Of a DNA stretch of 34,235 nt, positions 23,168-34,235 are shown piece after piece. The stretch comes from Flavobacteriales bacterium (GTDB taxonomy: Bacteria > Bacteroidota > Bacteroidia > Flavobacteriales_D > Crocinitomicaceae): assembly GCA_947380375.1 (NCBI GenBank), contig CANCQX010000015.1:1-34235 (forward strand), read 5' to 3'. Position 1 is the stretch's first letter; each line of letters begins with the position of its first letter. The notes under the pieces are model-generated. The model saw only the letters and a list, made by a program, of their open reading frames with translations. It was not told where the DNA came from and did not search any database. A program made the position numbers and the translations under genes.

Positions 23168-24037
23168 TTATTGGAAATAATCAACTTTTATTTCTGCTAT
23201 TGAAACAGGTTTTTTATTAGTTTCTCCCGAAACGTTATACTTAACTCTTTTTACCCAGTTTTTGTATTTGTCGAAATCGTAATTATAAATATTTTTTCTA
23301 AAAACAACACCATCTCCATTGTGGTCACTTTCTTCGATGATGTTTCCTTTATCGTCATATATATACGTGTATTTATCATAAATCACGTTGGATGAATTGA
23401 TTGCGCAATTTTCAATCATGTTCCCTTTATCATCATACTTATAAGTGTATTTGTCAGACAATACTCCTGTACCATTGTAATAATTTTCTTCAACGACATT
23501 TCCTTTATCGTCGTATTTATAAGTATATCTATTGAATAATACTCCATTTGCATCAAAATCTTTTTCTTCTAACATGTTGCCTTTAGAGTCATTTAAGTAA
23601 ACGATTTTACCTTGCATTATACTGTCTGAATTATAATCTTCAGTTTGGATAAAAAATCCTTTTTCGTCATATTTGTGAACTGTTTTTTTATACAATTTCC
23701 CACTTGAATCAAATTTTGAAAAAGCTATTAATTTCCCATTTTCATTGTAATCAAAAATATACTTTTCAATTATTGAGCCATTCCCATTGTAATGAATTTC
23801 CTGAATTTTACCACCTTTAATATTATATAGTTGTGTGTAATATTTTTGTAAAGTTCCTTTGACAAGTTCCCCTGATTTATCATACATGTCATATACTGAA
23901 ATGTGAACAGATTTCACTTTCCCTTTTTCATTCTCCTTAGATGGTTTAAATAGTGGAATATGTGAACTCTGACCATCTTGTTGAGAGAAAACAATTTGAT
24001 GACTAATTAATAATAGAAGGAGTAGTGTTTTTTTCAT
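23168..24037 (-). CDS. Secreted protein of 26-residue YD/RHS-like repeats
   Basis: The protein has 289 residues with a signal peptide (MKKTLLLLLLISHQIVFSQ). From ~60 to ~245 it consists of about seven tandem units of exactly 26 residues with the pattern KYTYKYDDKGN-(V/M/I)-(V/I)-E-E/N followed by a (N/D)GxGV-like turn. Examples are YKYDDKGNVVEENYYNGTGV and YIYDDKGNIIEESDHNGDGV. The tail (DFDKYKNWVKRVKYNVSG) resembles the end of short RHS/YD-like proteins. These repeats build beta-strand stacks; no toxin, shell or sorting domain is attached. It is exported to the periplasm or beyond, with no type IX signal seen. Function unknown. Confidence 0.7.
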   Translation of the reverse strand: MKKTLLLLLLISHQIVFSQQDGQSSHIPLFKPSKENEKGKVKSVHISVYDMYDKSGELVKGTLQKYYTQLYNIKGGKIQEIHYNGNGSIIEKYIFDYNENGKLIAFSKFDSSGKLYKKTVHKYDEKGFFIQTEDYNSDSIMQGKIVYLNDSKGNMLEEKDFDANGVLFNRYTYKYDDKGNVVEENYYNGTGVLSDKYTYKYDDKGNMIENCAINSSNVIYDKYTYIYDDKGNIIEESDHNGDGVVFRKNIYNYDFDKYKNWVKRVKYNVSGETNKKPVSIAEIKVDYFQ

Positions 24038-24274
24038 AATCTTAATTTTATTTTAAATGTAATTTATTTTTTATTAATAATTAATAATTCATAACATTAA
24101 ATTTATTTTTTTCGAAAATAAATTCTTCTAGCTTTAAAAACGTTTTATAGTTAGGTGTTTTAGTTGAAATAGATTTTTTTAAAAAAGTGATTAATATTCT
24201 ATTATTCAAAATGATGTAATTCTAATTGTAAATAATGTAAATTTATAGACTTATGAAAGACCAATTTTGTAAAT

Positions 24275-24835
24275 ATGAAATATACAATTAGAAAAAACAG
24301 AATGTTACTAAATTTTAATATGGTTTTTAAAAGTAGTTTACTTTTAAGAGTGTTGTTTTTTTCTTCAATTTCAATGTCTCAAGATTTAGAAACTGTTTCA
24401 ACAGTTGATATACAGAAATATTCTGGGAAATGGTTTGAAATTGCTTCCTTTCCTCAGCGTTTTCAAAAAGGTTGTACTTGTACAACGGCAGAATACACGT
24501 TGACAACTAAAAATTATCTTATAGTCGAAAATCGTTGTAATAAAGATAGTTTAAATGGTAATCAACAATATATCAAAGGAAAGGTGTTTGTTGTTAAAAA
24601 TACAGGAAATTCAAAGTTAAAAGTTCAATTCTTTTGGCTTTTCAAAGGCAAATATTGGATTATTGATTTAGCAAATGATTATTCTTATGCTGTAGTTGGG
24701 CATCCAAATCGGAAATATTTATGGATACTTTCAAGAACAGCTTCTATGGACGATGTGATTTATCAGGAAATTATATCTAGAATTGCATTAAAAGGATATG
24801 ATGTATCTAAAATTTTAAAAACCAAACAATTTTAA
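24275..24835 (+). CDS. Lipocalin-family protein (Blc-like)
   Basis: The 186-residue protein carries the lipocalin first-strand signature YSGKWFEIASFPQRFQKGC at ~50-68. The second conserved block is GKYWIIDLANDYSYAVVGHP, and the third is YLWILSRTASMDD. These are in the order and spacing of bacterial lipocalin Blc. The N terminus is a hydrophobic export-like segment ending SISMSQ. There is no lipobox cysteine, unlike E. coli Blc, so it may be soluble in the periplasm. ATGs at residues 10 and 16 could be the true start and would improve the signal peptide. It is followed after 10 bases by a SOUL gene and is probably co-transcribed with it. The likely ligand is a lipid or another hydrophobic molecule. 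Confidence 0.88.
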   Translation: MKYTIRKNRMLLNFNMVFKSSLLLRVLFFSSISMSQDLETVSTVDIQKYSGKWFEIASFPQRFQKGCTCTTAEYTLTTKNYLIVENRCNKDSLNGNQQYIKGKVFVVKNTGNSKLKVQFFWLFKGKYWIIDLANDYSYAVVGHPNRKYLWILSRTASMDDVIYQEIISRIALKGYDVSKILKTKQF

Positions 24836-24845
24836 ATTATAAATT

Positions 24846-25445
24846 ATGAAGATTATATTAATAATACTAGGTGTCTTATTCGGACTATTTATCATTTTTC
24901 AAATCGTAATAACTATGTCAACAGCAAAAACTGAAAATCAAGATTACAAACTTATTCAAAAAGAGGAAGGTTTTGAAATACGCTATTATCCAGCTTCCAC
25001 AATGGCGAAAGTGACGTCGAATATTAAATCATACAAAGATTTGGGACATTCTGGCTTTGGAGTCTTGGCTAAATACATTTTTGGTGGGAATAGTGAAAAG
25101 AAACAAATAGCTATGACTTCACCAGTTCATATGGAGATATCTGATACTGTTTCATCTATGGCTTTTGTGATGCCTTCTAAATTCAATAAGGATAATTTAC
25201 CTTCACCTGATAATGCAAATGTAGTTATTGAAACTACAGAAGCCGAATATGTAGCTGTTATATCTTTCGGAGGCTTTGCAAATGAAAAAAGTATCAATGA
25301 AAATAAATCGCTTCTTGCAACAGCATTAAAGAAAAAAGGGATAGCATACCATGGCAACTTTCGTTTTTTAGGGTATAATCCGCCTTATCAATTAGTTGGA
25401 AGAAGAAATGAGGTGATTGTTGCGGTAGATTCTGAGGGATTTTAG
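24846..25445 (+). CDS. SOUL/HBP-family heme-binding-like protein
   Basis: The protein has 199 residues. An N-terminal membrane anchor (IILIILGVLFGLFIIFQIVI) is followed by the SOUL fold. Its signatures are DYKLIQKEEGFEIRYYPAS, FGVLAKYIFGGNSEKKQIAM followed by TSPVHME, AFVMPSKFN, and the end FRFLGYNPPYQLVGRRNEV. SOUL proteins bind heme or tetrapyrroles in eukaryotes. In bacteria the role is not established, and heme ligation cannot be judged from sequence alone. The main domain is expected on the periplasmic side. It is the second gene of the lipocalin pair and is closed by a strong terminator. Confidence 0.88.
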   Translation: MKIILIILGVLFGLFIIFQIVITMSTAKTENQDYKLIQKEEGFEIRYYPASTMAKVTSNIKSYKDLGHSGFGVLAKYIFGGNSEKKQIAMTSPVHMEISDTVSSMAFVMPSKFNKDNLPSPDNANVVIETTEAEYVAVISFGGFANEKSINENKSLLATALKKKGIAYHGNFRFLGYNPPYQLVGRRNEVIVAVDSEGF

Positions 25446-25472
25446 ATTCTAACTAGTATATGGTATAAATAG

Positions 25473-25507
25473 AAAAAGCCTTGTAAATTAAATTTACAAG
25501 GCTTTTT
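25473..25507 (+). terminator. Strong intrinsic terminator after the lipocalin-SOUL pair
   Basis: A perfect 16-base stem, AAAAAGCCTTGTAAAT (25473-25488) and ATTTACAAGGCTTTTT (25492-25507), has a 3-base loop and a T run. It is the last feature before the mobile element. Symmetric A and T runs would let it act in both directions. Confidence 0.9.
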
Positions 25508-25543
25508 TGTGATCCCGTTTGGAATAATTTGACGAATTAATGC

Positions 25544-25659
25544 AATACCTAAAAACGCTTTAAAATACCTATTTATCAATAATTTATGAATTTTAACTGA
25601 TTGTTTAAATGTCTTTAAATATCTTTAAATTGCTAAATTGTTTACCCTAATGTTTACCC
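25544..25659. repeat. Short direct repeats upstream of the integrase (candidate att/arm sites)
   Basis: Three sets lie in this gene-free stretch. AATACCTA occurs twice with a 20-base period (25544-25551, 25564-25571). A 10-base tandem ending CTTTAAAT or GTTTAAAT occurs three times (25601-25630), followed by a weaker fourth copy. TGTTTACCC occurs twice with a 12-base period (25639-25647, 25651-25659). Periods of 10, 12 and 20 bases put the copies on about the same helix face. This suits integrase arm-type or excisionase binding sites next to an attachment core. No tRNA gene is complete here. Confidence 0.5.
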
Positions 25660-25678
25660 CATTTTGCTTTTATTTTCT

Positions 25679-25686
25679 TATATTTG
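25679..25686 (+). promoter_or_regulatory. Candidate -7 element of the integrase gene
   Basis: TATATTTG matches TAnnTTTG and lies 22 bases before the ATG at 25709. It is immediately downstream of the TGTTTACCC repeats, so proteins bound there could repress int. No TTG at the standard spacing. Confidence 0.45.
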
Positions 25687-25708
25687 TTTAGAAATAAAAA
25701 CATATAAA

Positions 25709-26932
25709 ATGGCATCAGTTTCAATAGTACTCAGAAAAGATAAACTTAATAAAAATAATGAAGCTCCAATTCATTTTCGTATTATAAAAGATAGGAAAAT
25801 TTCATATATCGCTACTGGTTATATCATAGATGTAAATGATTGGGATGATGGTAATAAAAAAATAAAATCAACACGCAAAGGTAGAGACCACAAAGAAACG
25901 ACAGCAAAGATGAATGCAATAATTTCTAAGAGGTATTCAGATATTCAAAAAGAAGTAATTGATTTAGAAACATTAAAAAAACACGTTTCATCTAAAAACG
26001 TTAAAGATGTTGTGTTTGGTAAGAAAGCAGAAGATTTCTATTCCTTTGCTGATACGGTTGTAAATAATTACGATATTGATAGTAAACCTGGTACATTTTC
26101 AAGAACACAATCCGTTATTAAGAAACTTAAATTATATGCTCCAAAATTAAATTTCAATGAGATTACACCAAAATTTCTATCCGAATATGAAAACTACTTA
26201 AAAACAAAGAAAAAACCCAATTCAATAAATACAATACACGCAAATTTCAAGTTCATACGATTAGTTTTTAATAAAGCTTATCAGATGGATATAATAGACT
26301 TAAGTTTAAATCCTTTTTTAAAGTATAAAATTAAAACTGAAAAAACACAGCGAGAATATCTTACAGAAGAAGAATTATTAGCTTTCTATGAAGTTAAAAC
26401 ACAATTAGGTTCTCGATTAGATTTGCATAAAGATATGTTTGTGTTTTCAGCCTATTCAGGAGGTTTAAGAGTGTCAGATATGTTACAGCTTCAATGGAAG
26501 CATTTTGATGGCTCTAATATCAATTTTACAATCAAAAAAACAAATAATCAACTTTCAATTAAAATCCCAAATAAAGGTTTAGAAATTCTCAATAAATACA
26601 AAAAAGAGGATACAAAAAGTAACGATTACATTTTTGAAATGTTATCTCCAAATACTTTTAAATTAACTGCTAAAGAAATTGACGATGCAATTAGTTCGGC
26701 AACTGCTCAGATTAATAAAAATCTAAAATTATTAGCAACAGATGCTGAGATTGAAAAAAATATATCCTTCCATATAGCTCGTCATACATGGGCTACAAGG
26801 GCATTAAAAAAAGGGATTTCAATAGATAAGGTTTCCAAGTTAATGGGACACGCTGCAATTAAAGAAACGCAGGTTTATGCAAAAATTGTAAATTCGGAGT
26901 TGGATAAGGCAATGGATGCATTTAATGATTAG
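25709..26932 (+). CDS. int: Tyrosine recombinase / integrase of the mobile element
   Basis: The protein has 407 residues from the ATG at 25709; an upstream in-frame TTG at 25664 lies before the -7 element and is rejected. The N terminus (MASVSIVLRKDKLNKNNEAP and YIIDVNDWDD) is the arm-DNA-binding domain usual in Bacteroidota integrases. A SAM-like core-binding domain spans ~110-210. The catalytic domain shows Arg254 in YSGGLRVSDML, a likely lysine in FTIKKTNNQLS, His355 and Arg358 in HIARHTWATRA, His381 in LMGHAAIKETQ, and the nucleophile Tyr390 in VYAKI. All catalytic residues are present, so it should be active. It integrates and excises the element by site-specific recombination. An unknown gene follows almost without gap. 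Confidence 0.95.
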   Translation: MASVSIVLRKDKLNKNNEAPIHFRIIKDRKISYIATGYIIDVNDWDDGNKKIKSTRKGRDHKETTAKMNAIISKRYSDIQKEVIDLETLKKHVSSKNVKDVVFGKKAEDFYSFADTVVNNYDIDSKPGTFSRTQSVIKKLKLYAPKLNFNEITPKFLSEYENYLKTKKKPNSINTIHANFKFIRLVFNKAYQMDIIDLSLNPFLKYKIKTEKTQREYLTEEELLAFYEVKTQLGSRLDLHKDMFVFSAYSGGLRVSDMLQLQWKHFDGSNINFTIKKTNNQLSIKIPNKGLEILNKYKKEDTKSNDYIFEMLSPNTFKLTAKEIDDAISSATAQINKNLKLLATDAEIEKNISFHIARHTWATRALKKGISIDKVSKLMGHAAIKETQVYAKIVNSELDKAMDAFND

Positions 26933-26936
26933 TAAT

Positions 26937-28379
26937 ATGATAGAAAGAGTAGAAGAATATTTCAAGAGTGTTATTATAGAGCTTAACGATGTTAAAAATG
27001 AATTAGATAAAAATTCAAATAATTTAAACTCTTTAAAGCAATCCTCTTTGAGGCTTTTTAATTTACTCCACAATCCTTGTTCTCCATTAGCAATCTCGTA
27101 TGATTATTTAATAACTAATAGTTCAACAAAAATTTATATTAATTCAAAAGAAAAATTATACCGTATTCAATTGATAATTCAGCAATTTGGTAAAGATTTA
27201 AATTTTGATTTGGAGCATAAAAAAGTTAACTCATCTTATGGTCTTTTAATTGAAGCTCTTAGAATTAATGCTTTTAAAACAGATGTTTATTATTCAACTC
27301 ATGATTACATTGATCTTAAAGATGAAATCTTAAAATCTCGAAGTGTAAAATATTTAAATGAAATATCTTCGGGTTTATTATCTGAAACAAAGTTTTTCAT
27401 ACAGAATAACATAATTGATACAATTTTACACATAACTTTTACTTCAAAAAAAGACACAGACAAAGAATTTTCTAAATATCAATTGGAATATTTCAAAAAA
27501 TGGGTTGATAACACTATAACATATCGTGATTTATCAAGTAATTCTTTTTATGATTTAAATGAATTCTTGTCTACTGAAAAAATAAGTTTTGAAATTAATG
27601 AACAGATTGAGAATAAAAAAATAGAGTTATTCTATGAGGGAATAGATAAAAAATTGAATAGTTTAAAAGATGATCTTTCTGAAATCAATAAAGAAAAAAG
27701 AATTCAAACTATTAATACCCATAAAAAACTAATTAATTCATTCTTGGACGGTAATATCGATAGACTTTTAATCGAACGTTTGAATATATTCATACAAATA
27801 GATAATCCTGAAAAAGTAATTATTGAATACGATAAAATTTTACAATCAGATTTTTATAGTTTTAATGATGCGATGGTTTATGAACCTAAAAAAATGAGAA
27901 GATTTTCTGATGTATTTACAGCAAATCTTTTATTTGAATATTTGAAGTTGATTAATTCCCCCAAATTAATTCCAGATGCATATGATTATTTAGATGAGGA
28001 TGAAATCGTTAAAAGAGTTTCATTTAAATTTATTGGTGATGAAGAGAAACTTTTATATGCTTTAAAATCTTTACATCTGACAATTGATCTTTTAAAAGAT
28101 GATTCTCAAATTAATTATTTATTTGATATTTTAACATCTGTTGATTTAGCAGAGTTTAAAGAAGAAATTCTTATAAATTGTGAAACAAAACAATTTGCTT
28201 ATACATTAAAATCGTTATCACCTTATTTTAATAACTTAAAAATGAAGTGTATTGAAGGATCAAAATTATTTAAATCAAAAAATAATAAGTTGATTACGGC
28301 AAATAGTTTATATTCGAAAGATCAGTTATCACCTAAAAAATCAGAAGATATTGATAGGATAATTAATTATATGAAATAA
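26937..28379 (+). CDS. Unrecognised 480-residue protein following the integrase
   Basis: I do not recognise a family. The chosen start (ATG 26937, MIERVEEYFKS) lies 4 bases after the int stop. An ATG at 26916 would overlap int by 17 bases. The protein is highly charged and helical, rich in Lys, Asn, Ile and Leu, with no signal peptide or membrane segment. Coiled-coil-like stretches lie at ~10-40 (ELNDVKNELDKNSNNLNSLK) and ~235-265 (KKLNSLKDDLSEINKEKRIQ). The C-terminal ~110 residues form a denser, more domain-like part (VSFKFIGDEEKLLYALKSL, FDILTSVDLAEFKEEI, TLKSLSPYFNNLKM). That part could be the conserved module of accessory proteins found beside Bacteroidota integrases. Co-transcription with int suggests a role in integration control or element maintenance; this is inference. 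Confidence 0.8.
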   Translation: MIERVEEYFKSVIIELNDVKNELDKNSNNLNSLKQSSLRLFNLLHNPCSPLAISYDYLITNSSTKIYINSKEKLYRIQLIIQQFGKDLNFDLEHKKVNSSYGLLIEALRINAFKTDVYYSTHDYIDLKDEILKSRSVKYLNEISSGLLSETKFFIQNNIIDTILHITFTSKKDTDKEFSKYQLEYFKKWVDNTITYRDLSSNSFYDLNEFLSTEKISFEINEQIENKKIELFYEGIDKKLNSLKDDLSEINKEKRIQTINTHKKLINSFLDGNIDRLLIERLNIFIQIDNPEKVIIEYDKILQSDFYSFNDAMVYEPKKMRRFSDVFTANLLFEYLKLINSPKLIPDAYDYLDEDEIVKRVSFKFIGDEEKLLYALKSLHLTIDLLKDDSQINYLFDILTSVDLAEFKEEILINCETKQFAYTLKSLSPYFNNLKMKCIEGSKLFKSKNNKLITANSLYSKDQLSPKKSEDIDRIINYMK

Positions 28380-28386
28380 AAAACAG

Positions 28387-28420
28387 TAAGTTCAATAAGA
28401 TAACTTAGTACAATCTTATT
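28387..28420 (+). other. Interleaved inverted repeats with H-type pseudoknot geometry
   Basis: Stem 1 pairs TAAGTT (28387-28392) with AACTTA (28402-28407). Stem 2 pairs AATAAGAT (28394-28401) with ATCTTATT (28413-28420). The 5' arm of stem 2 lies in the loop of stem 1, with 1-base and 5-base connecting loops. As RNA the two stems are interleaved, an H-type pseudoknot, or could form as alternatives. It begins 8 bases after the stop of the unknown gene and ends 30 bases before the next -7 element. It is A/U-rich and no T tract follows. Confidence 0.4.
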
Positions 28421-28449
28421 ACCTTATTATTCCCCCTTTACACCTTCCA

Positions 28450-28457
28450 TACATTTG
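28450..28457 (+). promoter_or_regulatory. Candidate -7 element for the HTH/replication genes
   Basis: TACATTTG matches TAnnTTTG, 23 bases before the ATG at 28480. No TTG at the standard distance. It would start a transcript through both HTH genes and probably the helicase. Confidence 0.45.
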
Positions 28458-28479
28458 TTCATATATAAAAAATTATAAT

Positions 28480-28722
28480 ATGAACGAAAAATTAATTATT
28501 AGAAAGTTGGATAACATCGAAGCGATGTTACAACAAAAAAACATCATTACTAAAGATGTATTGACATTCAATGAAGCTGCACTTCTATTAGATGTAAGCC
28601 ATTCTCATTTGTATAAACTAACAAGTACCAAACAGATCCCTCACTATTGTCCGCAGGGTAAGAAACTTTATTTTGATAGAGAAGAAACTATTAAATGGAT
28701 GAAGAAAAATTTAATCAAGTAA
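28480..28722 (+). CDS. Small helix-turn-helix protein (excisionase/AlpA-like), first of two
   Basis: The protein has 80 residues. Residues ~25-77 form a MerR-like winged HTH of the HTH_17/excisionase type: LTFNEAALLLDVSHSHLYKL, then TSTKQIPHYCPQGKKLYFDR and EETIKWMKKNLIK. Such proteins act as recombination directionality factors or as regulators of integrase and replication genes in integrative elements. A short helical N terminus (NEKLIIRKLDNIEAMLQQKN) may be a dimerisation helix. It has its own candidate promoter and lies 21 bases ahead of a second HTH gene of similar design. Confidence 0.82.
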   Translation: MNEKLIIRKLDNIEAMLQQKNIITKDVLTFNEAALLLDVSHSHLYKLTSTKQIPHYCPQGKKLYFDREETIKWMKKNLIK

Positions 28723-28743
28723 TTAACCTAAAACTAAATAGCA

Positions 28744-29019
28744 ATGAATTTCAACGTTATTCCCCAAGTTCAATACGACTTATTAATTAATCGTATTGAA
28801 ACAATGCACAAAGAGCTTTCAACGAAGCAGAAAAACCCAAAAGAAGTGATTTATGATAGCCTATCACTTATGGAAATGCTAAACGTAAGCAAATCCACTT
28901 TACAAAAAATGAGAGATGAAGGATATTTAGGTTTCTCACAAGTAAATGGCAAATTCTTTTACAGACAATTAGATGTAAATGAAATGATTGAAAAGAATTA
29001 CAAACCTGCATTTAGGTAA
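28744..29019 (+). CDS. Small helix-turn-helix protein (excisionase/AlpA-like), second of two
   Basis: The protein has 91 residues. After a helical N terminus (LLINRIETMHKELSTKQKN) comes an HTH_17-like domain: YDSLSLMEMLNVSKSTLQKM, RDEGYLGFSQVNGKFFYRQL and DVNEMIEKNYKPAF. The design parallels the preceding protein (helix, HTH, wing, last helix), but sequence identity is low, so they are distant paralogues with probably separate targets. One may be the excisionase and the other a regulator of the replication genes; which is which cannot be told. Confidence 0.8.
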   Translation: MNFNVIPQVQYDLLINRIETMHKELSTKQKNPKEVIYDSLSLMEMLNVSKSTLQKMRDEGYLGFSQVNGKFFYRQLDVNEMIEKNYKPAFR

Positions 29020-29026
29020 ACCATTC

Positions 29027-29042
29027 TCCGCAATCCTGCGGA
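29027..29042 (+). repeat. Small G+C-richer hairpin after the second HTH gene
   Basis: Perfect 6-base arms TCCGCA (29027-29032) and TGCGGA (29037-29042) enclose the loop ATCC, 8 bases after the stop codon. The stem is G+C-rich in an A/T-rich setting. A following A run in place of T makes it a poor terminator; it could be an RNA processing or protein-binding site. Confidence 0.4.
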
Positions 29043-29063
29043 AAAATCACTAAAAATTTAAGA

Positions 29064-29156
29064 ATGAACACACAGAACTTTCGCTTTACAGCGCAAGAAC
29101 AGAAATCTATTGTCAAAACATTTGCACCAGGGCAAAGCCTTGGTGCTTCAAACTAA
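29064..29156 (+). CDS. Possible 30-residue small ORF ahead of the helicase
   Basis: ATG at 29064 opens 30 codons starting MNTQNFRFTAQEQKSIVKTF and ending GQSLGASN, 12 bases before the helicase ATG. Its base composition is richer in G+C than its neighbours. It may be a real small protein or a leader peptide, since its 3' end contains a stable hairpin (29124-29146) that could couple its translation to that of the helicase. No family recognised. Confidence 0.45.
   Translation: MNTQNFRFTAQEQKSIVKTFAPGQSLGASN
29124..29146 (+). promoter_or_regulatory. Hairpin just upstream of the helicase gene
   Basis: GCACCAGGGC (29124-29133) pairs with GCCTTGGTGC (29137-29146), 10 pairs including one G-U, around a 3-base loop AAA. 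It is one of the most stable stems in the element, inside the end of the small ORF and 22 bases before the helicase ATG. No T run follows, so a regulatory role in translation is more likely than termination. Confidence 0.5.
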
Positions 29157-29168
29157 AAAAAAGAAAAC

Positions 29169-30731
29169 ATGGAAATGATGGAAATTAAATCTACATTATT
29201 AAACAACGTGCTTAACCAAACTGCACAAACAAGATTGAGAAAAAGTCAATATCTAACCGAAACAAGTTTTGCGTATGATATACTTCAATTCAAGTATGAC
29301 AATAAAAATAACCGGTTTGAATTGTCAGGGATCTATCACGAAGGTGTTCGTGAATACTTAGCGTCAGTAGGTATTTTCAAAAGATACATTAATAAAGATA
29401 AAGCTATTCTTATCAAACAAGATGGTTGTTTTATTGAGGAAATTTCCCCTGAAAATATCAAAGACATTTTTCAAGATTACATTTTTTCATTGGAAGAAAA
29501 TATCAAATTCAAATACAATGAAGTTGATTACAACATTCCTGCTGATGCGATTAGAAATTACTTCTTAAAGCAATCTAATTTATTCTTTAATGAAAAGTGG
29601 TTAGAACACTTAAACGAGCATACAATTCCAATATTAAAAGATACAAAGAAATATTGCTATGTTGTTTTTCGAAATTGCTTCGTTCAAATTTCTGAAAAAG
29701 ATAATGTTGAAGTATTGGATATTGAGAAACTTTCAGAGAAATGTATATGGAAATCACAACGTATTGAAAGAGATTTTAAACAAGTTGATGATTACACTTC
29801 AAATCAATTCGTACAATTTTTTACAAATGTTACTTCAGGTATTGAAGGTCGTTACGATGCGCTTCGTGGTGCTTTTGGTTACTTAATTCACAATTACTTT
29901 TCTCCTGCAGATGGTAAAGCAATTCTACTATATGATGAAGCATTGACTGATAGTTTGAAACCAATGGGGGGAACAGGAAAAGGTTTGTGTGCGAATGCCT
30001 TATCCCTGATACGTTCTCAGGTCAAGATTGATGGTAAACATTGGGATGCTACAAATAGATTTCGTTTTGAATTAGTTAAACCTGGTACTCAAATCGTATG
30101 GATAGATGAAACTAAATCCGACTTTAAGTTTGACTCGATGTTTTCTTGTTTAACGGACGGTTGGACGATTGAACGTAAATATTTACCTCAATTTTTTATT
30201 AAGCCTGCAGATAGTCCAAAAGTGTTGATTTGTAGTAACTCAATAATCACAAACATTGGTTCTTCTAATAAAAGAAGACAATTTATTGTGGAGTTAAACA
30301 ACTATTATAGTAAAAAAATTATCACCGGTTCAGAAAAGCCAATCGAAGAAGAACATGGTTTGCTTTTTGGTGAACAATGGTCTGTGATTTCTTGGAATGA
30401 ATTTTACTCCTTTATGATAGAATGTATCTACCATTACTTTCAAAATGGATTAATACCCTATGAGTTAAAGAATGTTTCTAATAATCTATTGCAACAGAAA
30501 ACAAGTCCTGATTTTATTGAATGGTGTGACGAACAAAACTTTGAATTGGATATAGATTATGATACAAAGATTTTATTTGACGATTACAAAAACAAATACT
30601 TAGGGGAAGATACAAATCATAAACAACGTGGTTTTACAAATTGGTTAAAGCTCTTCGCTTCTATTAAACTGTACTCTTTCAATACGACGACTTCTAATGG
30701 TAAACCTACATTTCGATTTTCTAAGAATTAA
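29169..30731 (+). CDS. D5/SF3-like replicative helicase of the element (primase-helicase family)
   Basis: The protein has 520 residues. The ATPase core lies in the middle: Walker A MGGTGKGL at residues 266-273, Walker B IVWIDET with Asp313-Glu314, and an SF3-type motif C region PKVLICSNSII at ~351-361. It continues with GSSNKRRQFIVELNNYY, where the arginine pair may serve as the finger. This fits the phage/plasmid D5-like helicases often annotated as DUF5906 or primase-helicase. The N-terminal ~200 residues carry no archaeo-eukaryotic primase or Toprim motif that I can see, so priming may be done by another protein. It probably loads on the element's origin and unwinds it. It is directly followed by a spacer with a long inverted repeat and then a small DNA polymerase. 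Confidence 0.85.
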   Translation: MEMMEIKSTLLNNVLNQTAQTRLRKSQYLTETSFAYDILQFKYDNKNNRFELSGIYHEGVREYLASVGIFKRYINKDKAILIKQDGCFIEEISPENIKDIFQDYIFSLEENIKFKYNEVDYNIPADAIRNYFLKQSNLFFNEKWLEHLNEHTIPILKDTKKYCYVVFRNCFVQISEKDNVEVLDIEKLSEKCIWKSQRIERDFKQVDDYTSNQFVQFFTNVTSGIEGRYDALRGAFGYLIHNYFSPADGKAILLYDEALTDSLKPMGGTGKGLCANALSLIRSQVKIDGKHWDATNRFRFELVKPGTQIVWIDETKSDFKFDSMFSCLTDGWTIERKYLPQFFIKPADSPKVLICSNSIITNIGSSNKRRQFIVELNNYYSKKIITGSEKPIEEEHGLLFGEQWSVISWNEFYSFMIECIYHYFQNGLIPYELKNVSNNLLQQKTSPDFIEWCDEQNFELDIDYDTKILFDDYKNKYLGEDTNHKQRGFTNWLKLFASIKLYSFNTTTSNGKPTFRFSKN

Positions 30732-30825
30732 GAATTAGGAGTAATTGCTTACGGGGGTATCCCTTTATAATTCAAATCATTTATACACATACACCCTATA
30801 GGAGTATAACTTAATTCTTAATTCT
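30724..30825. repeat. Long-spaced perfect inverted repeat between helicase and polymerase (candidate origin)
   Basis: AGAATTAAGAATTA (30724-30737) and its perfect complement TAATTCTTAATTCT (30812-30825) flank a 74-base centre. The left arm overlaps the helicase stop and the right arm ends 6 bases before the polymerase ATG. The centre holds AGGAGTA twice (30738-30744 and 30800-30806), GGGGGTATCCC and CCTATAGG. This concentration of symmetry in a spacer between two replication genes suggests a replication origin or a shared operator. As RNA it would sequester the polymerase start region. Confidence 0.5.
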
Positions 30826-30831
30826 AAAACA

Positions 30832-32019
30832 ATGAGTTTAACAACAAATGAACAATCATTTTTAGCACTTATCAGAGCATTACATCTAAAAAAACAATCT
30901 ACAAGAAAGGATCAAACTTTAGACTTTGTTTTTCTGTCACTCAAAACAATTAAAGCAAACTTTTTTCAAGATGATTATGAGTTAGTATTTAATAAATTAA
31001 AATCTCAAAATGAAATTGACTTTGAGAAAGTCCTAAATGATAATGGTAGTTTTTATTTCAAGTTCAAAGTATTAAATGATGGTCCGATAGATTTCAGTTT
31101 ATTGAAAGATAAATCTCGTAAGTTGGATAATTTAGATCGTATGATTAAAGCCAACTTGCGTTGGGTATCTATTGTGCAAGGTATTCAATCATCAATCTAT
31201 TTTGAACAATTCTTAAAACAAAAAGAAAAGCACTTAGACGCTTTCTTTTCAGTAGATAAATTTTCTGGTAGAATTCATACTCCAATTACGAGTTTGCAGG
31301 GTTCTATCAGGAAACATCTACTACTTAAAAATGAAACAGTTGTTTCATTAGATGTTGCACAAATTCAACCCTTATTACTTTCTTTCATTTTGAATGAGAA
31401 TATTGGTAATAATGAGTTCACAGAATGGATTGAAAATGGAGAAGATATTTACCTAAAATTCAAAGAGAAATTAAATCTTCAAAACAGAGAAGAAGCAAAA
31501 ACCAAATTCTACGAAATTACATTTGGTATAGCGAATAAAAGGTTAGCTGAAATGTTCGGATTTTCTAATTGGATTAAATGGGTTAATGATGTTAAATCTT
31601 TTGTTTTACAACAAAATCCTAATTCTAAAACAAAACCCCATTCCAATTTAGCTTGGTTACTCCAAACTACGGAAGTAAAGATTATGCGTTCAATTTGGCA
31701 AAAACTAATTGATAATGATATTCTGTTCCTTACCGTACACGATGAAGTAATCGTTCGTATTTCCGATGCAGATGAAACGTATAAAATTATGGTAGATGAA
31801 TTGAAATTTCATTTCAATACGTTTAAGGTGAATGTGAAAGATAATACATTACCTTCATTTGACACAATTGAAGAAAAAATAGAAAATATTGACGCATCTA
31901 AAATGTACTACCCTTATGAGTTACTGGAGAAATTTGATTTGTCGTTAGATGATATTACATCATTGATTGAACAAAAATTGTTAGAAGAAACATTTCCTGA
32001 TTGTTACAGAAAATTATAA
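30832..32019 (+). CDS. Minimal family A (Pol I-like) DNA polymerase of the element
   Basis: The 395-residue protein contains only a polymerase domain; there is no 3'-5' or 5'-3' exonuclease. Motif A is SLDVAQIQPLLLS with Asp174. Motif B is REEAKTKFYEITFG with Arg219, Lys223, Tyr227 and Phe231-Gly232 at the spacing of E. coli Pol I Arg754, Lys758, Phe762 and Tyr766-Gly767. Motif C is TVHDEV with His303-Asp304-Glu305. Upstream, FSGRIHTPITSLQGSIRKHL corresponds to the Pol I region before motif A. All catalytic carboxylates are kept, so activity is expected. Gln179 stands where Pol I has the sugar-gate Glu710. Located right after a helicase and a possible origin, it probably copies the element. 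Normal family A polymerases have about 600 or more residues, so this is unusually small. Confidence 0.85.
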   Translation: MSLTTNEQSFLALIRALHLKKQSTRKDQTLDFVFLSLKTIKANFFQDDYELVFNKLKSQNEIDFEKVLNDNGSFYFKFKVLNDGPIDFSLLKDKSRKLDNLDRMIKANLRWVSIVQGIQSSIYFEQFLKQKEKHLDAFFSVDKFSGRIHTPITSLQGSIRKHLLLKNETVVSLDVAQIQPLLLSFILNENIGNNEFTEWIENGEDIYLKFKEKLNLQNREEAKTKFYEITFGIANKRLAEMFGFSNWIKWVNDVKSFVLQQNPNSKTKPHSNLAWLLQTTEVKIMRSIWQKLIDNDILFLTVHDEVIVRISDADETYKIMVDELKFHFNTFKVNVKDNTLPSFDTIEEKIENIDASKMYYPYELLEKFDLSLDDITSLIEQKLLEETFPDCYRKL

Positions 32020-32077
32020 AAGCAATTGAATTATTTATAAATCATTTTTTAGTTAAAATATAAACCTGTCATATTAT

Positions 32078-32108
32078 CTGACTTTTTTCTTTTTCTTTCT
32101 TATCTTTC
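32078..32108 (+). promoter_or_regulatory. Weak candidate promoter of the mod-res operon
   Basis: CTG at 32078-32080, 20 bases of spacer, and TATCTTTC at 32101-32108 each differ by one base from the Bacteroidota TTG and TAnnTTTG elements. It lies 27 bases before the mod ATG in a 116-base pyrimidine-rich gap. Confidence 0.3.
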
Positions 32109-32135
32109 GCTCTTGTTATTAAGAAATAAAATAAG

Positions 32136-33719
32136 ATGCCGACATTACATTGGATAGGAAAAGAAAAAGTTATCAATCATCATAGAGATGTTCCGTTTAA
32201 AGTTCTTGAGCACAAATACGGTTTTGACAATGGTGTACAATCTGAAATACTATCCAATTCTGGAAATTTAATCATACACGGAGACAATCTTGAAGCTTTA
32301 AAAGCTTTACTTCCTCAATATGAAGGTAAAGTAGATTGCATTTGCATAGACCCTCCATACAATACAGGCAACGAACATTGGGTATATAACGACAATGTAA
32401 ACCATCCAAAAATTAAAAAATGGTTAGGGGAAGTTGTTGGTAAAGATGGGGAGGATTTAAGTCGTCACGATAAGTGGTTGTGTATGATGTATCCAAGATT
32501 AAAATTGCTTCATCAATTACTATCTAAAAACGGTGCAATTTTTATTTATTGTGATGATAATGAGCAAGCTAATCTAAAATTAATTTGTGATGAGATTTTT
32601 GGTAATAATAATTTTGTAGCAAATGTAATATGGCAACACAGCATTCAACCAAAAGGTTATCTTGGTAAGTTTTCAGTTCATCATAATCATACATTAATTT
32701 TTTCAAAATCATCAACATTTACCATTGGTAATTTGGAGCGAACTGATGAACATAATAAAGCATATTCAAACCCAGATAATGACCCCAGAGGTTTATGGAG
32801 AACAGGTGATGTAAGAAATGCATTATACCGTCCTAATCTAATTTATGATATTCAAACACCATCAGGTAAAATAATTTCACCCCCAAAAAATGGATGGCGC
32901 TGGAGTAAAACAACTTTAGATGAAAAAATAAAAACTGGTGAAATAATTTTTAATAAAACAGAAACAAATATTATTAGAAAGATTTATTTGGATACATTAG
33001 AAGGTCGTGCACCTGAAACAATATGGTTTGGACAAGATGTCGGCACAACAAGAGATGCAAATAAAACACTTAAAGAAATTTTCGACCAAGAATTACCTTT
33101 TGACACTCCTAAACCATATCAACTTATTGAAAGAGTAATAAGCATTTGTACAAATAAAGATTCAATAATTTTAGATTCATTCGCAGGTTCTGCTACTACT
33201 GCTCATGCTGTATTAAATTCAAATAAGGATGGTGGTAATCGCAAATTTATTTGTATCGAAATGGAAGATTATGCCGAAACTGTATCGGCTGAAAGGGTAA
33301 GAAGAGTTATTAATGGTTACGGTTCAGTCGATAAAAAAAATGAAGGTGCAGGTGGTGGTTTTGATTATTATGAATTAGGTCTTCCAATTTTTGTTGGTGA
33401 AAATAATGAGTACCTAAATGAAAAAATCGACATCGAAAAAATAAGAGAATACATTTGGTACAGCGAAACAAGAAGTCCATATATTAAACCAATAAATGAA
33501 GATTCAGAATATTTTTTAGGTAAAAAAGATGAAACAGCATATTATTTTATCTACGATAAATCTATAGAAACAACTTTAGATTATGATTCGCTTTCTGAAA
33601 TAAAAACAAAAAGTCAGCAATACGTAATCTATGCTGATAACTGTTTGTTAGCAAAAGAATTTATGATGACGAACAACATAACATTTAAAAAAATCCCTCG
33701 TGATGTAACTCGTTTCTAA
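32136..33719 (+). CDS. mod: Type III restriction-modification methyltransferase subunit (Mod)
   Basis: The protein has 527 residues. The catalytic motif DPPYNTG (Asp72) precedes the SAM-binding motif DSFAGSATTAHAV (~347-359), the order of beta-class adenine-N6 methyltransferases. Flanking blocks NLIIHGDNLEALKALLPQYEG and KWLCMMYPRLKLLHQLLSKN are typical of type III Mod proteins. The central part (~170-320) is the variable target-recognition region, so the recognised site cannot be predicted. The C-terminal ~100 residues probably contact Res. It methylates one strand of an asymmetric site and gives Res its specificity. At 527 residues it is near the lower end for Mod proteins. One base separates its stop from the res ATG, a clear operon. 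It serves as defence cargo of the element. Confidence 0.93.
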   Translation: MPTLHWIGKEKVINHHRDVPFKVLEHKYGFDNGVQSEILSNSGNLIIHGDNLEALKALLPQYEGKVDCICIDPPYNTGNEHWVYNDNVNHPKIKKWLGEVVGKDGEDLSRHDKWLCMMYPRLKLLHQLLSKNGAIFIYCDDNEQANLKLICDEIFGNNNFVANVIWQHSIQPKGYLGKFSVHHNHTLIFSKSSTFTIGNLERTDEHNKAYSNPDNDPRGLWRTGDVRNALYRPNLIYDIQTPSGKIISPPKNGWRWSKTTLDEKIKTGEIIFNKTETNIIRKIYLDTLEGRAPETIWFGQDVGTTRDANKTLKEIFDQELPFDTPKPYQLIERVISICTNKDSIILDSFAGSATTAHAVLNSNKDGGNRKFICIEMEDYAETVSAERVRRVINGYGSVDKKNEGAGGGFDYYELGLPIFVGENNEYLNEKIDIEKIREYIWYSETRSPYIKPINEDSEYFLGKKDETAYYFIYDKSIETTLDYDSLSEIKTKSQQYVIYADNCLLAKEFMMTNNITFKKIPRDVTRF

Positions 33720-33720
33720 T

Positions 33721-34235
33721 ATGGAATTAAAAAGCTACCAACATAAAGTAATCAAGGATTTAGAAAGTTTTTTAGAATACTTACAAATCCATAAAAGAAT
33801 TGATGATTCTTTCAATAAATATTGGGAAGATAAAATAGGTCCATACAATCCGATTTCAGAGGAAGGTATGCAACCGTACAAAAACAATATCAAAAAAGCA
33901 CCTCACGTAAGTATTAAAGTTCCAACAGCAGGTGGTAAAACTTTTATTGCTTGTAATGCTTTAAGTTCAATTTTTAATGCCTATAATTCAGAATTACCAA
34001 AAGCAGTAATTTGGTTAGTTCCTTGGAGTAATTTATTAGACCAAACAGTAGCAAGTTTAAGTAATCCTGACCATCCATATAGACAAAAATTAAACAGTCT
34101 TTTTAATCATAGAGTTGAAGTGTATGAGAAGAAAGATTTGTTACAAGGTTCAAACTTTAACCCAAGTGTTGTTAAAGACCAATTATCTATCATTGTAATG
34201 AGTTTTTCAAGCCTTAGAGCAAGAAATAAAGACGA
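33721..34235 (+). CDS. res: Type III restriction endonuclease subunit (Res), 5' part only
   Basis: The ATG at 33721 follows the mod stop by one base, and the frame is open to the window edge (171 complete codons). The N terminus MELKSYQHKVIKDLESFLEY resembles the start of type III Res/DEAD-like helicases. Walker A is KVPTAGGKTFIA with Lys73. Motif Ia follows as VIWLVPWSNLLDQT, and a later segment reads LSIIVMSFSSLRAR. The downstream DEAD box and the nuclease domain lie outside the window. With Mod it forms the ATP-dependent type III complex that cuts near pairs of unmethylated inverted sites. Whether it is intact cannot be judged here. Confidence 0.9.
   Translation, partial: MELKSYQHKVIKDLESFLEYLQIHKRIDDSFNKYWEDKIGPYNPISEEGMQPYKNNIKKAPHVSIKVPTAGGKTFIACNALSSIFNAYNSELPKAVIWLVPWSNLLDQTVASLSNPDHPYRQKLNSLFNHRVEVYEKKDLLQGSNFNPSVVKDQLSIIVMSFSSLRARNKD

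Follow-up and report, generated by a model that had tools for sequence, protein, structure and literature searches.

The window, that is, the whole stretch of 34,235 nucleotides that was analysed, carries at one end a mobile element with genes for an integrase, a helicase and a small polymerase (Table 1). The element starts past a SOUL gene, with its left end between position 25430, at which synteny with a genus-mate (G001) stops, and position 25664, and it is cut off on the right by the end of the contig at 34235. Between the SOUL and integrase genes (25473-25507) lies an inverted repeat of 17 bp without mismatches, which has a T run and resembles a terminator. A search for an attachment site rendered no convincing direct repeat among the 20 repeat families listed out of 49, no tRNAs were found, and no RNA families were found in positions 24000-34235. 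The helicase gene, ending at 30731, is adjacent to the polymerase gene and upstream of it, and the pair is kept in the same order in the closest relative (L002, 37-40% identity, with L007 as the longer stretch).

Table 1. Features of the mobile element and of its polymerase gene, in positions of the window
Feature	Position	Strand	Evidence
Tyrosine integrase	25664..26932	+	Phage_integrase, 80.4 bits
DUF6617 protein, between integrase and HTH genes	26916..28379	+	64.3 bits
HTH_17 excisionase-like protein	28480..28722	+	HTH_17 match
Second HTH_17 protein	28744..29019	+	HTH_17 match
SF3/D5-like helicase without N-terminal primase domain	29169..30731	+	phrog_28855, C-terminal part, E 2.9e-54
TV-Pol-like mini family A polymerase, 395 aa	30832..32019	+	Motifs, Pfam, predicted fold, profile alignment
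N-terminal winged-helix domain, residues 1-92 (predicted)	30832..31107	+	AlphaFold2 model of the domain alone, pLDDT 87.8
Arg147, beta-hairpin arginine	31270..31272	+	Invariant, 39/39 rows
Asp174, motif A metal ligand	31351..31353	+	39/39 rows
Gln179, at the Glu710 (sugar gate) position	31366..31368	+	Gln 37, His 2 in 39 rows
Motif B, R219..K223..Y227..F231	31486..31524	+	Profile alignment and family rows
Glu281	31672..31674	+	39/39 in the family; Ala in the displayed Pol I row (L065)
Motif C, H303 D304 E305	31738..31746	+	Third residue Ser in 32/39, Glu in 2/39
Type III methyltransferase (probable cargo)	32136..33719	+	PADLOC MTase_III, E 7.9e-202, full length
Type III restriction subunit, gene start (probable cargo)	33721..34235	+	Open at contig end; ResIII 33.6 bits (cut-off 22.5)

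The polymerase matched the Pfam family DNA_pol_A over residues 154-245 with an E value of 5.7e-5, but its 22.7 bits stay under the gathering score of 34.3, so that it is a remote member of family A. Among the PHROGs it matched phrog_4756, of unknown function (E 9e-6), and phrog_15971, annotated as DNA polymerase I (E 0.0018). Searches with the single protein detected no relatives among viral contigs, genome contigs or plasmids and two weak matches in phage records; no PDB chain was matched by phmmer at E<=1, and the polymerase profile at E<=10 found only two kinesin chains (E 0.1). A comparison of the profile of its family, the TV-Pols (34 rows), with a Pol I profile made from 13 of 15 loci fetched from related genomes (two escaped the reading pattern) gave a P value of 4.9e-4. 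Motifs A and B were aligned in it free of gaps, and the HDE of motif C was placed on the HDE of Pol I; Asp174 falls on the Asp and Gln179 on the Glu of DYSQIELR, while in motif B Arg219 and Lys223 fall on R754 and K758, Tyr227 on F762 and Phe231 on Y766. Here the E. coli Pol I numbering (Glu710, R754, K758, F762, Y766 and Gln849) is the one that we take to apply to the aligned columns. The alignment of the TV-Pol profile with T7 DNA polymerase (P 4.6e-4) covers motifs B and C only. An earlier note, made from the sequence alone, had read motifs A, B and C of Pol I in a 395-residue frame, with Gln179 opposite Glu710 and Tyr227 opposite Phe762 and with no exonuclease domain, and it proved right on all these points, no exonuclease family of Pfam being matched. 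It had also called the enzyme very small; the window protein is the shortest of the 39 family rows described below, but within this family (395-686 aa) its length is nothing out of the ordinary.

The structure prediction that the earlier note had proposed as a check gave, at the level of the whole fold, a family A DNA polymerase. The AlphaFold2 model, built with 27 sequences (pLDDT 83.2, pTM 0.76), resembles these enzymes over residues ~93-350 by both VIA and Foldseek. Its top VIA match is the apicoplast polymerase (Z 15.6, 235 residues, 3.2 A), T7 DNA polymerase scoring Z 15.2 and the Klenow fragment (1kfs_A) Z 14.2, and Foldseek gave an E value of 2.3e-6 against family A DNA polymerases, with mitochondrial RNA polymerases ranking well below (E 0.04 and above). 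The best viral structural match (E 2.2e-14) came from an uncultured marine phage, with a protein of 403 aa labelled 'putative DNA polymerase I'. Close kinship with T7 RNA polymerase was considered and rejected, since the hhalign comparison gave a P value of 0.19 and covered motif C only. In the thumb region, which in the TV-Pols is described as made of two helices, the model has helices at residues 100-111 and 122-130. The N-terminal residues 1-92 are predicted to form a winged helix, with VIA scores of Z 8.1 to 4pql_B and 7.7 to 4pt7_B ('initiator') and with replication initiators and ORC subunits among the best matches (Z 8.1 and below). The Foldseek E values were weak (0.012 at best), so that the call is one of fold only, and for the same reason the assignment of this domain to a named family was discarded.

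Of 395 genomes belonging to one class, probably the Bacteroidia to judge by the type of integrase and the phage matches, at least 28 yielded relatives of the polymerase in a profile search, a lower bound because few candidates per genome are scored. Genome matches with internal stops or without flanks (G338:C33, G205:C3) were excluded. The alignment used for the gate tally has 39 rows, including the window protein and leaving aside duplicate loci and a fragment at a contig end (L037). Reading the motif A column in these homologues, as the earlier note had suggested, gave Gln in 37, His in two (L036 and L123) and Glu in none, the profiles used for collecting them having been built from Gln-bearing rows, which introduces a mild bias toward Gln. 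Pol I itself, read by regular expression as a control, has Glu in all 15 sequences from relatives and, among the 30 top-scoring matches of the class, in 29, the remaining one having Asp; Phe762 and Tyr766 are kept in all 45. Judging from the aligned rows, the sampled TV-Pol group thus keeps its Gln gate consistently, and the idea of a change peculiar to one protein can be rejected. Arg147, Asp174, Lys223, Glu281 and Asp304 are invariant in the 39 rows, so that the motifs are not due to chance. Other columns vary: the Arg219 column holds Arg in 32 of 39, the Tyr227 column F19, Y6, L6, M4 and I4, the Phe231 column F24, Y14 and N1, and the residue following Asp304 is Ser in 32, Ala in 4, Glu in 2 and Cys in 1. 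The invariant Glu281 sits three residues past the Gln aligned with Pol I Gln849. Gln-gate TV-Pol-like genes also occur in two records of uncultured phages, 635-642 kb in length (L005:2350-3606 and L006:2368-3603).

The TV-Pols were defined by Iyer, Abhiman and Aravind (2008, PMC2579912) as predicted primase-polymerases of mobile elements, with members named in Bacteroidetes, and both activities were predicted from their link with D5-like helicases; the gate residue is not discussed in the text of that paper. The window protein shares with them a minimal family A domain, a size close to the ~400-600 aa described, the absence of a nuclease domain, and a place beside a D5-like helicase within an element that carries an integrase (PMC2579912). 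The two conserved Asp of the palm correspond to Asp174 and Asp304 (39/39 each), the Arg of the hairpin to Arg147 (39/39), which was matched to Pol I through the GR motif, and the RxxxK of the fingers to Arg219 and Lys223 (32/39 and 39/39). The column of Asp205, a candidate for the Asp of the fingers, is a gap in 36 of the 39 rows. A difference lies in the N-terminal part, predicted here as a winged helix, whereas a subset of the TV-Pols has an all-helical N-terminal domain (PMC2579912). In phage Ma-LMM01, for which a TV-Pol was named in 2008, the TV-Pol profile matched nothing in the phage record at E<=1, and a local comparison with gp030 gave only an E value of 2; read by eye only, gp030 has QHDG and a stretch resembling motif A, YDVVKCHATIAHH, in which His occupies the gate position. 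The gp030 gene (L092:22746-24266, reverse strand) adjoins a transposase gene. Taken from sequence features and gene context, the polymerase fits the TV-Pol family and would be a new member of a known, little-studied group.

According to Bebel et al. (2020, PMC7581432), CCPol of SCCmec, placed in the TV-Pol group, primes when bound to its partner MP, which is required for this activity, and it is described there as the sole enzyme of the group characterised by 2020. CCPol-MP and the PolA-SSB type resemble the window protein in being small family A polymerases without a complete exonuclease domain, with a helicase gene adjoining in a mobile element and with a shortened last thumb helix (PMC7581432, PMC10061031). 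That helix is one turn shorter in modelled primases (Rice 2023, PMC10061031), it is shorter in CCPol-type primases and T7 RNA polymerase (PMC7581432, PMC10061031), and the resulting space has been suggested to accommodate the initiating triphosphate (PMC7581432, PMC10061031). In our AlphaFold2 model the last thumb helix comprises four residues (157-160), and at this place the profile alignment with Pol I opens a gap of 6 residues, so that the helix is predicted to be shorter than in Pol I. The distance from the hairpin Arg to the Asp of motif A is 27 residues in the window protein and 24-30 in 34 family rows, compared, by the pattern used, with 38 in 11 of 13 Pol I sequences and 52 in the other two. 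On the other hand, CCPol has Glu (E174) and Phe (F225) where the window protein has Gln179 and Tyr227, although Glu is not a defining feature of the PolA-SSB type. MP is an OB-fold protein encoded between polymerase and helicase (PMC7581432), whereas in the window the helicase gene precedes the polymerase gene and a winged helix is fused to the polymerase; no MP-like single-strand-binding partner was found, and no ORF of at least 60 aa lies between the two genes. DNA polymerase I shares the fold and motifs A, B and C, but the window protein stays under the PF00476 cut-off, has no exonuclease match and a shorter thumb-palm connection, and has Gln for Glu710 and Phe for Tyr766. The T7-like RNA polymerases are relatives within family A, with a likeness in motif C, which is HDS in most TV-Pols (Ser in 32/39); the window protein differs in its HDE and in having Gln at the position of Gly542, as placed by the offset from the motif A Asp.

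The window helicase had no Pfam match at E<=1 and no sequence match among PDB chains at E<=10, but a Walker-like GGTGKG and a VWIDE can be read in it by eye, and DUF5906, unmatched in it, is above the cut-off in three of its relatives (L060, L129 and L135). The earlier note had seen no primase motif in this protein, and the comparison with its relatives agrees, the window copy being without the primase domain that many of them carry. A phage relative is fused to BT4734-like and PriCT_1 domains, and two Salinibacter plasmids have a fusion to a Zn-ribbon and Toprim, below the cut-off. Among chromosomal relatives, fusions were found to BT4734-like domains (L129, L135), Prim-Pol (L133) and CHC2 (L134, L136 and L139, with L141 below the cut-off), whereas three of ten long N-terminal extensions had no primase match (L140, L142, L143). 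In another locus (L126) a separate BT4734-like/PriCT_2 gene lies beside the helicase gene, its BT4734-like match being slightly below the cut-off. The BT4734-like_N domain is one that we take to be of the AEP type. The two Salinibacter plasmids, pSR31 and pSR14 (L061, L062), also carry a terminase-family gene, suggesting that they are phage-like satellites.

A possible exchange of primase modules was assessed in 25 helicase loci with flanks (two further G316 fragments were left out), 15 of them without and 10 with a long N-terminal extension (at least 290 residues). Within the flank retrieved, a TV-Pol is found near six of the 15 extension-free helicases (window, L007, L044, L050, L123, L132) and near none of the ten extended ones, with a one-sided Fisher p of 0.028, a value obtained from related, non-independent genomes, L044 being close kin to L050. 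Of the 15 extension-free loci, five or more are cut or broken (L125, L128, L131, L137, L138), which makes the share approximate, and the L132 helicase ORF is short (309 aa). Seen from the other side, a helicase homologue is absent from 31 of the 37 TV-Pol stretches (window, L007-L009, L040-L059, L123, L132, L144-L154) and present in the same six, window included; most TV-Pols do without this helicase within the flank seen, or use another helicase. The helicase-linked TV-Pols are scattered in the tree (the window with L002, L015 with L038, and L031 with L123), and an integrase of the cluster of the window integrase is found near 16 of 23 other TV-Pols, these being the first 23 stretches besides the window. 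The helicase lineage presents several unrelated primase modules combined with one motor.

Three of the helicase-linked loci contain a second polymerase. Next after the helicase gene, L044, L050 and L123 each encode a Pol I of 598-635 aa with a Glu gate and a 3'-5' exonuclease domain (85.9, 98.0 and 101.9 bits, respectively; cut-off 23.6), and the TV-Pol is encoded separately, in the opposite orientation, at 0.9, 0.3 and 4.4 kb from the Pol I gene. All three genes are located within ~8 kb (L044:7148-12895, L050:3258-8247, L123:3096-10702). Because the TV-Pols of L044 and L050 are close kin, these amount to about two independent cases. Elsewhere, a single 1117-aa protein joins an SF3/D5-like helicase, a 3'-5' exonuclease and a Pol I domain (L124:3528-6878), and in L130 an exonuclease is fused to the helicase with a Pol I gene adjoining; no TV-Pol was found in either of these stretches.

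The explanation that we consider probable is that the protein is the TV-Pol of an integrative element and, working with the upstream helicase, starts strands without a primer. It builds on the motifs and predicted fold of the protein, the Gln or His gate in the 39 rows, the gene pair and the varied primase modules of the helicase relatives. The SF3/D5-like helicase would open the origin of the element, and the polymerase, a minimal family A enzyme with predicted winged helix, thumb, palm and fingers, would hold the single-stranded template by its winged helix, start strands primer-free and perhaps extend them a short way, in place of the primase domains fused to many of the helicase relatives. 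What we infer in this way is the priming activity, the part played by the winged helix, and a use mainly of dNTPs, the selection of sugars being perhaps relaxed. The suggestion of the earlier note that the enzyme helps to prime replication of the element gains from the gene context, from a helicase without a primase domain and from the 2008 prediction (PMC2579912), and loses from the 31 of 37 TV-Pol stretches that lack the helicase.

It could also be the case that the protein is a primer-dependent DNA polymerase which extends strands for the element, the host primase supplying the primers. The predicted fold, nearest to family A DNA polymerases, is in line with this, as is the absence of a match to any further polymerase in the nine scanned ORFs of the window or in the L007 stretch. 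However, no proofreading domain was matched in the protein, its helicase is without the primase domain of many relatives, and the three related elements, two of them close kin, have a TV-Pol besides an exonuclease-bearing Pol I. In the elements that have both polymerases, extension is unlikely to be mainly the work of the TV-Pol, a point in favour of priming. We regard a primer-dependent extender as unlikely.

Priming could also proceed with ribonucleotides, the Gln gate making the protein a primase that lays RNA or mixed primers. This is decidedly improbable in our opinion, although Glu is found at the gate in 0/39 TV-Pol rows while it is kept in the Pol I of three elements that also hold a TV-Pol. 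In bulk Gln comes close to Glu, and His is large as well, so that the change in size would not by itself be expected to abolish the gate. Glu710 is described as the steric gate of Pol I (PMC13228545), and in the Taq variants engineered for 2'-modified substrates the gate Glu is replaced by Gly (PMC9738464). In T7 RNA polymerase Tyr639 contacts the 2'-OH and selects rNTPs, the Y639F change lowering the discrimination from ~120-140 to ~5-7 fold (PMC9836923); by the register of motif B, the position of this Tyr is occupied in the window protein by Phe231, which is without the hydroxyl. RNA primers are made by most known primases (PMC7581432), but CCPol-MP is reported to prime with dNTPs only (Bebel et al. 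2020, PMC7581432), a result that does not settle the matter since CCPol keeps the Glu gate. For these reasons the acceptance of rNTPs, which the earlier note had put forward, finds no support here. Gln179 and Phe231 together describe a polymerase without the charged gate for DNA and without the Tyr that selects RNA, and from these residues the expectation would be dNTP use with a possibly relaxed sugar selection, rather than pure RNA priming. Tyr227, which occupies the 762 position as a Tyr does in T7, is relevant to the use of ddNTPs (PMC13228545), and it is not a family trait (6 of 39 TV-Pol rows). A literature search found no data on a Glu-to-Gln change at the Pol I 710 position, and, covering text, no statement on a Gln gate in TV-Pols; the column may be published in the alignment figure of the 2008 paper. 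Finally, that the polymerase is cargo serving repair or defence, together with the type III methyltransferase and restriction-subunit genes directly downstream, is very improbable: a defence role for such primases has been raised (Rice 2023, PMC10061031), but neither the polymerase nor the helicase had a PADLOC match at E<=0.01, and in L007 the pair is kept and then followed by a 118-aa protein without a Pfam match.

Family A DNA polymerases are known to depend on primers and to reject ribonucleotides. If the window protein is the primer-free TV-Pol that we favour, a further step, unlikely in our view, would be that TV-Pols are a natural class that changed its Glu gate to Gln or His on becoming primases, with a relaxed selection that would let a strand begin with any nucleotide available and give mixed RNA-DNA primers. 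If true, in elements such as L044, L050 and L123 an exonuclease-bearing Glu-gate Pol I would then do the extending, primase and replicase being split between two branches of one polymerase family. The Gln or His gate common to the sampled family and the elements holding both gate types merit attention, since a Gln/His TV-Pol beside a Glu-gate Pol I would make a loosening of sugar selection on becoming a primase directly testable.
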